In this document: piece by piece, positions 23,131 through 57,562 of the stretch
Layout: each line of letters starts with the position of its first letter
Position numbering within the stretch: position 1 is the stretch's first letter
Source: Anaerolineales bacterium
Lineage (GTDB): Bacteria; Chloroflexota; Anaerolineae; Anaerolineales; RBG-16-64-43
DNA length: 57,562 nucleotides
NCBI GenBank assembly: GCA_016928575.1
Contig: JAFGKK010000024.1
Location: forward strand, 1 to 57,562
Reading direction: 5' to 3'
Position numbers and translations under genes: made by a program
Notes under the pieces: generated by a model
The model's database searches: none
Seen by the model: the letters and a program-made list of their open reading frames with translations, nothing else
Told to the model about the DNA's origin: nothing

Positions 23131-23165
23131 GAGACCGAGGCGGTCTCCAAGACCGCCTCGGTCTC
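23131..23165. terminator. 16-bp perfect hairpin between iorB and the second paaK (CCGAGGCGG core)
   Basis: GAGACCGAGGCGGTCT and its perfect reverse complement are separated by CCA. No T run follows on the plus strand, so full termination is doubtful; an RNA-stabilising or partial-stop role fits better. The same core occurs in the hairpins at 25774-25813, 52957-52989 and 55391-55425. Confidence 0.6.
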
Positions 23166-52998: not shown

Positions 52999-54144
52999 CT
53001 ACCTCGTACACCCGTCGATCTCCGCCGAGTTGCATAGCGTCGAGATCAGGATATAGACGGTAAATTTGCTGCCTTCTTTCTCATATCCATGGCCCGGATA
53101 AATATGGGTATTGGCATTCATCCAATTCGGCTCCAACCTTTGTCCGTTGTAATACTTCGCCGGGTTTACCATCACACTCACTCCGACATACCACACCCCG
53201 GGAAGGTCCATCGGCGCATTGAGCAGATCCAACCGCAGGTAGGTTATTCCCGGTGCGTCCAAGTCGGCGTTGAAAAATCCTGTCCCGGGAGTCATCTGAC
53301 TCAGGTTGGTCGCCGTCTGACAGCGCGCATTCTTCATCCCCGGCCGCTCGATCAGACACGCGCCCTCCAGCGTCGTCCAACCTTGGGTGTACCAGTTGAT
53401 AAACTCGCCGTACAGCGCCAGCACCCGCTTCCCCGCCCCCTCCACCGGATCCTGAGCCCTCACCAATGCATGGGTGGGGATATCTTCCGGACGCGGATCG
53501 CCCTTCAGGAATTCGAACCCGGGATTTGCCGCGATCAGCGCGTCGATCTGCTCCTCGGTATAAATAAAATCTTCGCCGACTGTTGTGTACCCTTCCGGCG
53601 TCCAGGTCCCCAACGACCACTCCTCCGGAAACATGTAGCGAAGGGGATATTCTTTCACCGCCAAATAATCGATATTCCAACCAAGCCAATCTAATGTTTC
53701 TTCCGATGGTTCCAGCCAGACCTTCAACGAATTACCGATGATTGTCCGACGGACCGGCTCGCCTTTCACCTCCACGCATTTTCTGACCTTCGTCAGGAAA
53801 TAATGCGGCGGGCAATCGTCATCGTATCCCCTCCGGGTTCTATCCTCGACGCACTCCTCCACCTCGACCGGCGCCCAGTACGTGACCGTCATCGGCAGGG
53901 ATGCAATTTCCACCGTAATGCTCACACCCGTTTGCTCCTCCATGTCCTGCCCGATGACAATCGGGTATTCCGGGGTCGTCTTTTTCGCCAGTGTGATTTC
54001 AAAGCCAAACTCTTCTTTATCCGGAAAAGTAACTTTCACCGGATACCCCTCACACGGGTCTGCCGCCTGCGCCCGTGCCGGTGCGGTTTTCATCAACGCA
54101 ATAAAAAACAAACCCGTCAGCAGAGACCATTTGTTTATTTTCAT
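52999..54144 (-). CDS. secreted eight-cysteine protein A, copy 2 (unknown)
   Basis: A 381-residue protein with a Sec signal peptide (KWSLLTGLFFIALMKTAPARA, then QAADP). I do not recognise the family. It shares most of its length with the protein encoded at 55433. Eight cysteines are conserved between the two (CE.YP, ECVED, DDCPP, RKCVEV, a CL pair partner, CQTA, TLCNSAE, DGC), so four disulfides are likely. Other shared strings are EYPIVIGQDMEE, SLPMTVTYWAPVEV, ANPGFEFLKGDPR, EDIPT, NPAKYY and SKFTVYILISTLCNSAE. The gene follows lipoprotein B copy 2 after 24 bases on the minus strand. Extracellular role unknown. Confidence 0.8.
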   Translation of the reverse strand: MKINKWSLLTGLFFIALMKTAPARAQAADPCEGYPVKVTFPDKEEFGFEITLAKKTTPEYPIVIGQDMEEQTGVSITVEIASLPMTVTYWAPVEVEECVEDRTRRGYDDDCPPHYFLTKVRKCVEVKGEPVRRTIIGNSLKVWLEPSEETLDWLGWNIDYLAVKEYPLRYMFPEEWSLGTWTPEGYTTVGEDFIYTEEQIDALIAANPGFEFLKGDPRPEDIPTHALVRAQDPVEGAGKRVLALYGEFINWYTQGWTTLEGACLIERPGMKNARCQTATNLSQMTPGTGFFNADLDAPGITYLRLDLLNAPMDLPGVWYVGVSVMVNPAKYYNGQRLEPNWMNANTHIYPGHGYEKEGSKFTVYILISTLCNSAEIDGCTR

Positions 54145-54168
54145 TTCGCACCTAAGAATTGAATGTCA

Positions 54169-55212
54169 CTACAACTCTTTGCTACAAAACGTGTAATCGG
54201 ATATCTCGTTGAATATCCTAACTCGTGCTACTCGCCCAAGCTCCTCTTCGCCCAGATACGCATACGATTCCCAAATTTGGTTTTCGATATCCGGAGTCTC
54301 CCACCATTGATATTCGGCCATTGGCGTTTTTCCCGCAAAAGAAGGATGTTCAATACCAATTCCATAATACTGGTTTTCACCGGTGGCGTATCTTAGTTTT
54401 TCATATAATACATTAATTATTTTCCCTTCGATATCATACAGGATTATCCACGAAGGAAATGTGTAAAATGGTTGATATTCAACACCGGGAGGGATGTTTT
54501 TGCTGTCGAAGCGTATCGCCATAATGGATCCGCGGATTTCGTACTTCACCTTTTCCGGCAGCGGATGGTACCCCTCATAGATCGTCGGCGAGTATCCACG
54601 CCAAGATAATTTTTCGTATATCTCATCCCAGCGCAAGTAAAAGGCTTCGTAATTGTTTATCCGATACCCCAAATGCGGCGGCGGAGTGTCCAATTCCCCC
54701 CATTCCCCCGGACAATTCGATTGACCGCCGCTGCAATAATTGGAAAGGTCAAATGCGATCACCCCAACCTCTCCCGGATATAGGACGCAATTCATCCTCT
54801 TATCGTCTGAGCCGGGTTTGACATAAACGTCTTCCAAAATATGAAAGTAATATCCTCTGGATTCCCACCATCCTTCCACCCCAAGCCGCAGCGCCCACTC
54901 CATTCCCGGAAAGATCATCGCCTCGCTGGTATTATTACGCATCTCGGCCATGAATATCGTCCCCAGCGGGCCCTCGGCGAAGGTCACGTTCAGCAGTTCC
55001 AGGTCCGGCGCCGGGCCCGGGCTGGCCGTCACCACCGGCTCGACGGTCGGGATCTCCATCGCGGTCGGGGTCGGCGTGGGCACCCCCGTCGGCGTCCTGC
55101 TCGGCCGGGGCGTGTTCGTCGCCGCGGCGGACGGATTTGCCGGCCCAGCCGAGCAGGCGGCGGTTGCCGCCAGAAGAATGCACACGATGCTGAGGACGCC
55201 CTTCTTGTTCAT
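54169..55212 (-). CDS. lipoprotein B, copy 2, with two FxLYD-like segments (unknown)
   Basis: A 347-residue lipoprotein. The lipobox is TAAC with Cys20, followed by a Thr/Pro linker (TNTPRPSRTPTGVPTPTPTA). The mature domain begins PDLELLNVTFAEGPLGTIFMAEMRNNTSEAMIF and later has YEIRGSIMAIRFDSKNIPPG then SWIILYDIEGKIINVLYEKL. The x-G-x-M/I-R-N-N-T and L-Y-D-x-G-K-I pieces resemble FxLYD beta-sandwich domains, but weakly. ATG 55212 is preferred to GTG 55218 because GGGAG lies five bases upstream. It precedes protein A copy 2 in the same operon and is paralogous to the gene at 56585. Confidence 0.78.
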   Translation of the reverse strand: MNKKGVLSIVCILLAATAACSAGPANPSAAATNTPRPSRTPTGVPTPTPTAMEIPTVEPVVTASPGPAPDLELLNVTFAEGPLGTIFMAEMRNNTSEAMIFPGMEWALRLGVEGWWESRGYYFHILEDVYVKPGSDDKRMNCVLYPGEVGVIAFDLSNYCSGGQSNCPGEWGELDTPPPHLGYRINNYEAFYLRWDEIYEKLSWRGYSPTIYEGYHPLPEKVKYEIRGSIMAIRFDSKNIPPGVEYQPFYTFPSWIILYDIEGKIINVLYEKLRYATGENQYYGIGIEHPSFAGKTPMAEYQWWETPDIENQIWESYAYLGEEELGRVARVRIFNEISDYTFCSKEL

Positions 55213-55218
55213 TATCAC

Positions 55219-55432
55219 TCCCAGTAGCTATCCGTCCCAGCTTTTTCTCGCTTGATCCATCACACTCCCCCCTGGGCTCCTCCAATTTCTGAGTGCGGTT
55301 TCAATTCCCCCATCCCCGAAGGGATGGGGGGAAGTGCGCTTGGGGGGTGGAGGGAAAGTGGTGTACCATATCGGTATATCTATGTGTCATAAGACCGAGG
55401 CGGTCTTAAAGACCGCCTCGGTCTTTTCATTT
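55219..55432. other. spacer between the two modules, with two hairpins
   Basis: CCCCCATCCC / GGGATGGGGG at 55307-55330 (four-base loop), then the perfect palindrome at 55391-55425. Neither has a strong T run on the minus strand. The spacer should hold the promoter of the copy 2 module; no clear hexamer pair is seen. Confidence 0.45.
55391..55425. terminator. 17-bp perfect palindrome (CCGAGGCGG core)
   Basis: AAGACCGAGGCGGTCTT and its exact reverse complement, one base apart, eight bases below the stop of protein A copy 1 on the minus strand. It probably ends transcription of the copy 1 module. On the plus strand it is followed by TTCATTTT. Confidence 0.65.
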
Positions 55433-56572
55433 TCACATCGTGCATCCGTCGACCTCCGCCGAGTTGCAGAGGGTGGAGATCAGAATGTAGACGGTAAATT
55501 TGCTATTATCTTTCCTATATCCATTGCCCGTGTCCATATGCAGGTTCGCGGGGGATGGTTCCGTCCTGGTTTCATGATAGTACTTCGCCGGATTTACTTT
55601 GACGCTTACCCCGATGAACCACTCCCCGGGCAGATCCATCGGGACCTGACGCAGATCCAGCCGAATGTAAGTAATACCCTCCGCGTTCAGGTCGGCATTA
55701 AACAACTCCGTCTCCGGCGTCGTCATGCTCAGGTTGGTCGCCGTCTGGCAATAGCCGTCCGTTATTCTGTTGTCCACCAGGCACGGTCCGTCCGCCGTCG
55801 TCGGCGCCCCGGTGTACCAATTGGTGAATTCTCCATAGAGCGCCAGCACCCGCTGCGCCCGCGCCGCGTCCGTCGTGGGGTCCTGCACCCTCGTCAGCGC
55901 ATAGGTCGGGATGTCCTCCGCGCGCGGATCGCCCTTCAGAAACTCGAATCCGGGATTTTGCGCGATGATCGCGTCGATTTGCGCCTCGGTGAACATGAAA
56001 TCGCTGCCGACCGTCGTAAAGCCCTCCGGAGTCCAGGTCCCCAGCGCCCACTTCTCCGGAAACACGTAGCGCAGAGGGTAATGATTATCATCATCCGTAC
56101 TCCATCCAAGCCACTTACGCGTAACCTCCGCAGGCTCCAGCCACACCTGCAACGAAGCTCCGATGATCGTCCGGCGCACCGGCTCGTCTTTCACCTCCAC
56201 GCATTTTCTGACCTTCGTCATGAAATACTGCGGCGGGCAATCGTCATCGTACCCTTTCCGGTTTTTATCCTCGACGCATTCCATCACCTCGACCGGCGCC
56301 CAATACGTGACCGTCATCGGCAGGGATGAGACTTCCACGGTCAGGTCCACCCCCGTCTTCTCCTCCATGTCCTGCCCGATGACGATCGGATATTCCGGGG
56401 AGATCTTCTTCGCACCGGTAACCGCGAAACCATATTGTTGCTCGTCGCCGGGAAATTTGACAGCAACAGGGTATTCTTCGCACGTAATGTCTTCCTCTGC
56501 GTACACAATCACAGGCTTCAGCGCCGCAATGGAGAGGAGGACAATCCACAGGCACGATTTCATCTTTTTCAT
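55433..56572 (-). CDS. secreted eight-cysteine protein A, copy 1 (unknown)
   Basis: A 379-residue paralog of the protein at 52999, with a Sec signal (CLWIVLLSIAALKPVIVYA, then EEDIT). The same eight cysteines and the same motif order are kept. The regions between (for example after the RKCVEV and EFLKGDPR strings) differ moderately, as expected for an older duplication. It lies 12 bases after lipoprotein B copy 1 and is surely co-transcribed with it. ATG 56572 or the ATG three codons later could start it. Function unknown; secretion and disulfides suggest a stable extracellular or surface protein. Confidence 0.8.
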   Translation of the reverse strand: MKKMKSCLWIVLLSIAALKPVIVYAEEDITCEEYPVAVKFPGDEQQYGFAVTGAKKISPEYPIVIGQDMEEKTGVDLTVEVSSLPMTVTYWAPVEVMECVEDKNRKGYDDDCPPQYFMTKVRKCVEVKDEPVRRTIIGASLQVWLEPAEVTRKWLGWSTDDDNHYPLRYVFPEKWALGTWTPEGFTTVGSDFMFTEAQIDAIIAQNPGFEFLKGDPRAEDIPTYALTRVQDPTTDAARAQRVLALYGEFTNWYTGAPTTADGPCLVDNRITDGYCQTATNLSMTTPETELFNADLNAEGITYIRLDLRQVPMDLPGEWFIGVSVKVNPAKYYHETRTEPSPANLHMDTGNGYRKDNSKFTVYILISTLCNSAEVDGCTM

Positions 56573-56584
56573 ATCGCATCCCCC

Positions 56585-57562
56585 TCAGCCGTGTTGACTT
56601 TGCAGGTCTTTATAACAAAAATTGAAATCCGCCAACTCGTTGAACACCCTGATGCGGGAGATCCTCCCCCAATCCGCTTCGGACAAGTCCGCCATCGGTT
56701 CCCACCACTGGTTGTCGATCGTCGGTGTTTCCCATGGCATTTGTATCTCCGCGCCTCCGATTCCGTAGATGTGAATTTTTCCGGCGAATCTGGATGTCTT
56801 TTCAAACCGTAGATCCGTACGTAAGATGTTTATGATTTTCCCCGCCTCATCATAAAGGATTATCCACGATGGATCGAGATAAGCGGTTCGCAGATCCGGA
56901 AGCGCGATTTCCAAATCGTAGTTTATCACCATATTTTCACCCCGGATTTCATACTCCAGGTTCTCCGCCGGCGGGTGGTACCCCGGGTGGATCTCCGGCG
57001 AATACTTATAACCCTTTCTTACTCCTACTTCATATATATACTCCCAGCTTCGGTAGAAGGCTTCATAACTTATCAGCCGCATGCCGAGCTGGGGGGGAGG
57101 ACCGGATAATTCCTCGCTTTCAACTTTACAAATATTTCTATCCGAACACTCTAAGGAAATGCTAAACATCGCCACGCCCGTTTCTCCCGGATAGAGCAGA
57201 CAATTCATCCTATCCGCCTGTATCTCGGGTTTTAAATACACATCATATTGATGATGATAATAAGGATAATATCCGCCACCCACCCATTTCTCCAATCTCA
57301 GATGCAGCGCGTCTTCCCGCCCCGGGAAGATCATCGCCTCGGCTGTGTTGTTGCGCATCTCCCCCATGAAGATCGTTCCACTCGGACCTTCGGCGAAGGT
57401 TACGTTCAGCAGTTCCAAGTCCGGCGCCGGGCCCGGGCTGGCCGTCACCACCGGCTCGACGGTCGGGATCTCCGTCGCGGTCGCGGTCAGGGTCGGCACC
57501 CCCGTCGGCGTCCTGCTCGGCCGGGGCGTGTTCGTCGCCGCGGCGGACGGATTTGCCGGCCC
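56585..57562 (-). CDS. lipoprotein B, copy 1, 5' end outside window
   Basis: The reading frame is open to the right edge, so the signal peptide and start lie outside. The visible 325 residues begin GPANPSAAATNTPRPSRTPTG, almost the same as copy 2, followed by the Thr/Pro linker, PDLELLNVTFAEGPSGTIFMGEMRNNTAEAMIF, then a diverged middle and SWIILYDEAGKIINILRTDL. It ends 12 bases before protein A copy 1. The first part is nearly identical in DNA to copy 2 while the rest has drifted. Confidence 0.8.
   Translation of the reverse strand, partial: GPANPSAAATNTPRPSRTPTGVPTLTATATEIPTVEPVVTASPGPAPDLELLNVTFAEGPSGTIFMGEMRNNTAEAMIFPGREDALHLRLEKWVGGGYYPYYHHQYDVYLKPEIQADRMNCLLYPGETGVAMFSISLECSDRNICKVESEELSGPPPQLGMRLISYEAFYRSWEYIYEVGVRKGYKYSPEIHPGYHPPAENLEYEIRGENMVINYDLEIALPDLRTAYLDPSWIILYDEAGKIINILRTDLRFEKTSRFAGKIHIYGIGGAEIQMPWETPTIDNQWWEPMADLSEADWGRISRIRVFNELADFNFCYKDLQSQHG

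Follow-up and report, generated by a model that had tools for sequence, protein, structure and literature searches.

The right end of a 57,562-nucleotide stretch of Anaerolineales DNA carries two tandem gene pairs, each encoding a lipoprotein (B) and a Sec-exported protein (A), and we propose, with a probability of roughly 0.5, that such B-A pairs form the rapidly evolving, exposed component of accessory cassettes for the tip of a Tad (Flp, tight adherence) pilus. Many bacteria rely on Tad pili to control attachment, surface sensing and predation, and to our knowledge the components at the end of these pili are known in very few of them. The initial annotation, made from the stretch alone, had suggested that A and B work as partners at the cell surface. 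This idea is supported within the genus; the more telling link is that of A to the Tad pilus. The genes that consistently accompany A are Tad pilus genes, which were invisible in the window (the whole stretch analysed) because they are located past the end of the contig.

The window is the complete contig C24 of a genome assembled into 137 contigs (3.84 Mb). Open reading frame and sequence checks confirm a B-A-B-A array on the minus strand, in the order and at the positions first annotated, and the gaps of 12 and 24 bases within the pairs and 220 bases between them also match. The features of the array are as follows.

56585-57562, minus strand: B1, lipoprotein of pair 1, with its 5′ end open at the contig end
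C74 14631-14701: leader of B1, which lies off the window on contig C74
55433-56572, minus strand: A1, 379 amino acids, Sec-exported, with eight mature cysteines and a Tad-locus-associated domain
54169-55212 (or 55218), minus strand: B2, lipoprotein of pair 2, with a signal peptide, a lipobox-like TAAC, a Thr/Pro linker and two predicted Ig/FnIII-like domains
52999-54144, minus strand: A2, 381 amino acids, Sec-exported protein of pair 2, with the same eight cysteines
55391-55425, no strand assigned: GC-rich palindrome 3′ of A1, terminator-like, a dispersed genomic repeat
55265-55351, no strand assigned: hairpin repeat between the pairs, also dispersed; the element is found before B1 on C74 as well

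The hairpins that had been pointed out in the 220-base gap are present but are not special to the locus, being dispersed repeats that recur on nine other contigs. Such hairpin or palindromic repeats occur in the window at 55265-55351, 55391-55425 and 23132-23164, and at many places in the genome of a sister species (G001). A search of the 220-base spacer for a riboswitch gave zero Rfam matches, even at an E value of 1.

A1 and A2 are 67% identical (dN 0.23, dS 1.04, dN/dS about 0.22) and B1 and B2 are 61% identical (dN 0.34, dS 0.83, dN/dS about 0.41), values that indicate genuine coding duplicates with purifying selection on both proteins, weaker on B. Along the DNA, the first 50 codons of the in-window part of B1 are 96% identical to B2 and the remainder about 60%; A1 and A2 have the reverse pattern, with a divergent leader and a core that is up to 91% identical. 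The near-identity of the B leader and linker spans window positions 55062-55212 and 57412-57562, together with C74 14631-14701. The contrast between the B1/B2 leader (about 96%) and the rest of the gene (about 60%) suggests that the leader has undergone gene conversion or recombination.

Near-identical stretches are a common cause of assembly breaks, and B1 and B2 are nearly identical exactly where the assembly breaks. The missing leader of B1 was found at the end of C74 (14631-14699; 91% identity over 23 residues), and the last bases of C74 abut the first of C24, read on the minus strand, with zero sequence overlap. From these sequences, the joining of C74 to C24 is likely rather than proven. 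Pfam matches identify three genes on C74 on the same strand as the B1 leader.

C74 13099-13500, same strand as the B1 leader: TadE-like
C74 13602-14012, same strand as the B1 leader: TadE-like
C74 14036-14440, same strand, directly upstream of B1: TadG-like

If the join is right, the position of TadG upstream of B1 makes the array TadE-TadE-TadG-B-A-B-A, with two pairs. The array, which the initial annotation had allowed might continue past position 57562, therefore probably ends at these two pairs, with TadG and no further pair upstream of B1; the rejection of a longer array rests on the inferred abutment of C74 and C24.

Further B-A pairs are present in the same genome on contigs C9 and C72, with 25-30% identity to the window copies, and one pair is present in G001 (at a place corresponding to JAFGCU010000025.1; Anaerolineales metagenome-assembled genome, isolate Zod_Metabat.1134). 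Within the genus, A and B homologues are thus regular neighbours rather than rare ones: in all five intact pairs A is found with B, and always in the order B-A. A remnant of A at C66 6452-7027 (L027), 71% identical to the C72 copy, has a broken frame and no adjoining B. The proposed partnership of A and B stands in so far as they are paired in 5/5 cases and duplicated as a unit within the genus, but outside the genus A domains occur without B, and the pair is therefore not an obligate two-part system.

Directly upstream of B and A, on the same strand, lie TadE and TadG genes at all four B-A loci (three in this genome and one in G001). The Pfam families PF07811 and PF13400 were matched at each of the four, mostly above the curated cut-off, with the first TadE of C74 (22.5 versus 22.9) and the TadG of C9 (17.8 versus 22.3) falling below it. 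Each cassette encodes small minor pilins (about 135 amino acids), of which one is TadG-like and one or two are TadE-like, followed by B and then A. Seven TadE matches were found in the whole genome, of which four are in B-A cassettes, one is in a core operon on C118 and two are on C121; by our own estimate (7 × 2 kb / 3,840 kb, cubed), the chance of three unrelated loci all lying within 1 kb of a TadE gene is about 5e-8. The core tad genes on C118 encode a TadZ-like protein, CpaB, a TadA-type ATPase (PF00437), TadB/C, TadE and TadG, with the TadC match (PF00482) slightly under the cut-off. Another candidate Tad tip set in the same genome, a TadE-TadG(VWA)-TadE cluster at C121 9919-13892 (L095), resembles the B-A cassettes as a minor-pilin cluster away from the C118 core operon; it differs from them in the VWA domain of its TadG-like protein, in its large pilins (233-549 amino acids) and in having neither B nor A.

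Identity tables for A, B, TadG and TadE give one and the same grouping, with C24/C74 and G001 in one group and C9 and C72 in the other, which indicates that the cassette has travelled as a unit. Within these groups, TadE and TadG are 63-76% identical whereas B and A are only 37-54% identical; divergence is faster in A and B than in the pilins. In G001, the TadE-TadE-TadG-B-A cassette lies in a unit of 4,054 bases, flanked on either side by an exact direct repeat of 16 bases (L030 10131-14200). The matching site in the window genome (G000), upstream of argG on C66 (L027, about 10481), has no such unit and one degenerate copy of the repeat, consistent with either insertion in G001 or precise loss in G000; as a random control, 600 pairs of window positions with the same spacing were compared, and not one had 14 exact bases in common. 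For the C72 cassette, the search for an empty site found no match in G001 to the left flanking gene, and a search for relatives on plasmids or viral contigs found none.

The sequences of A and B place neither protein in a named family. As the initial annotation had it, A has a Sec signal, belongs to no named family (searches of Pfam and NCBIfam gave zero matches for A and for B) and keeps eight cysteines of the mature protein in both copies, at positions 31, 99, 112, 124, 264, 275, 369 and 377 in A1 and 31, 98, 111, 123, 263, 275, 371 and 379 in A2; seven of the eight are invariant across five family members. Sequence comparison with solved structures yielded no relative of either protein, the one match of A being at chance level (E = 0.66). 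The leader of A is Sec-type and that of B lipoprotein-type. Profile searches of A and B returned no pilin family, and by sequence they are therefore not minor pilins. The model of A is poor (pLDDT 50), with beta strands in residues 36-147 allowing only a prediction of a beta-rich protein; its best structural match (Z 4.0) was set aside, and a fold is not assignable.

The lipobox ascribed to B is visible in the window in B2, whereas B1 is cut by the contig end and has its leader on C74. A resemblance of B to FxLYD proteins, also proposed at the outset, is not supported by Pfam, in which none of the five B proteins matches FxLYD at E ≤ 1. The model of B (pLDDT 65) has a disordered linker followed by two Ig/FnIII-like beta-sandwiches. 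For the first (residues 69-195), the archaellum stator FlaF gives Z 7.0, with 95 residues superposed at an rmsd of 3.2, a score that unrelated folds equal, and the second has its best match (Z 6.8) in the FnIII domains of cytokine receptors. Both scores are in the range of common folds, and B is thus modelled as two Ig/FnIII-like beta-sandwiches and nothing more specific. In an order-wide search B was found in the window genus, to which its sequence appears confined, plus a marginal match in G589 (E = 0.004).

The A domain extends much further. A profile of the five A proteins matched 12 of 396 genomes of the class at E 0.01, the window genome included, and alignment of the five to 13 distant relatives with hhalign gave a probability of 98% (E = 1.5e-13 over 100 columns). 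A carries a P-[IL]-V-x-G-Q-D motif and has profile similarity to relatives at tad loci; in the joint alignment this similarity also takes in W-[IL] and DPG/LPG segments and the final strand, between which the A proteins of the window genus carry extra sequence. The joint profile, used for the order, was positive in 46 of 301 genomes and 32 of 112 sampled genera, and a profile of the distant relatives, used for the phylum sample, in 7 of 400 genomes. By these searches the A domain is frequent in the order and rare across the phylum at large.

Unmistakable tad genes are in reach at 25 of the 36 A-domain loci examined; the remaining 11, of which several are at contig ends, have only parts of an ATPase/membrane-gene block. 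Four gene arrangements are seen among the 36.

Arrangement 1, canonical tad operon: Flp-TadE-TadG-X-A-CpaB-TadZ in G069, where the protein X is rich in Thr and Pro and has an SH3-like end; and, with genes read by eye, TadA-TadB-TadC-...-A-prepilin peptidase-TadE-TadG in G095
Arrangement 2: A-CpaB-TadZ-TadA-TadB in G403 and G529
Arrangement 3: a longer A (mostly about 450 amino acids), a 180-amino-acid membrane protein, a serine-rich HerA-like ATPase (NF033849), CpaB, TadZ, TadA and TadB
Arrangement 4: satellite TadE-TadG-B-A cassettes of the window genus

Many loci share arrangement 3 by descent and are not independent, and the weight lies in the occurrence of four different arrangements. The arrangement 3 block is seen at L074 7174-17320 and also at L073, L077, L078, L080, L133, L137-L142, L144 and L146; several genomes have more than one copy, and at L074 a replication-relaxation-type gene lies near the block, which may be a Tad-based DNA transfer element. 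These loci, with their longer A relatives in fixed order before CpaB-TadZ-TadA-TadB, differ from the B-A cassettes in that a HerA-like gene was found only beside the former, and not beside the cassettes of the window genus. On the available sequences, A is a member of a previously undescribed family found in tad gene clusters across the class; our search of the literature available to us on Chloroflexota Tad loci or a HerA/Tad element found nothing naming the A or B proteins.

The upstream TadE and TadG genes, the shared history of the cassette and the class-wide linkage of A with tad loci together support a place for the pairs at the pilus tip, with A and B probably serving as exchangeable exterior components of an adhesive pilus. 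The genes of the core Tad machine lie in one place (C118) and several minor-pilin clusters elsewhere in the genome. In the proposed scheme the TadE and TadG minor pilins would cap the pilus, A would dock on the minor-pilin complex much as TcpF does with a minor pilin of type IVb pili, and B would hold or deliver A at the cell surface or the pilus exit. Each cassette could then give the pilus a different binding specificity, and the duplication in the window would provide one TadE-TadE-TadG base with two alternative B-A heads. Gene order, the common history of the four genes, the export signals and the link of A to tad genes are seen in the sequences, whereas co-expression, physical contact, tip position, ligand and binding function are inferred. 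Several points speak against this assignment: A and B are not pilins, and their sequences therefore do not place them on the pilus; no B is found beyond the genus; most A relatives adjoin a HerA-like ATPase, where A may serve another function; and a lipoprotein would sit in the membrane rather than at a pilus tip.

A could instead be an envelope part of the Tad apparatus, at its exit or as a scaffold, rather than a part of the tip; in this genus B would then be the lipoprotein that anchors it. We regard this as unlikely: it is consistent with the A-type genes inside core tad operons beside CpaB/RcpC (G069, G403 and G529) and with the lipobox of B, whereas the A genes of the genus are in satellite minor-pilin cassettes off the core operon, in several diverged copies, which is odd for a fixed part. 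It also seems improbable that A, with or without B, is cargo exported or released by the Tad system, such as an enzyme or effector, for although type IVb pili export proteins encoded in their operons (TcpF) and fast divergence of A and B would fit, family searches recognised neither an enzyme family nor a catalytic motif in A, and the only prediction for the domain is that it is beta-rich. Most doubtful is that A and B form a surface pair functionally unrelated to the pilus, a passenger in minor-pilin islands, as might be read from the discrete 4-kb, island-like cassette of G001, which the other genome lacks at the matching site, and from the predicted Ig/FnIII-like folds of B, which are common in binding proteins; passenger status leaves unexplained the linkage of the A domain to tad genes in several arrangements across the class.

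Pilus-tip cassettes of the kind that we favour have a precedent in Myxococcus, in which TadE/F/G-like minor pilins of the Tad pilus are interchangeable tips encoded in scattered Tip clusters (PMC12075869). As with KilL, KilM and KilN of the Kil (Tad) pilus of Myxococcus xanthus (PMC12075869), there are scattered minor-pilin clusters, one core Tad set, a conserved base and variable exposed parts; in contrast to that system, in which the variable domains lie within the minor pilin KilN, the cassettes described here have small pilins and separate exported B and A proteins. TcpF of the Vibrio cholerae toxin-coregulated pilus (TCP) is reported to interact with a minor pilin (PMC9565799). The likeness of A to TcpF and to CofJ of ETEC CFA/III is one of setting only, each being a soluble Sec-exported protein encoded with its pilus operon, and the pilus there is type IVb whereas here it is Tad. 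We know of no lipoprotein partner of type B for TcpF or CofJ.

More tentatively, we suggest that in Chloroflexota Tad pili the binding heads may be separate, swappable exported proteins (A, held by B in this genus) that are gained and lost as units in discrete cassettes, which would make A the founding example of an unrecognised Tad component of the Anaerolineae. Following tad genes throughout the class, absent from Pfam and NCBIfam and present in multiple copies within minor-pilin cassettes, the A family offers specific candidates for what Tad pili expose in uncultured Chloroflexota.
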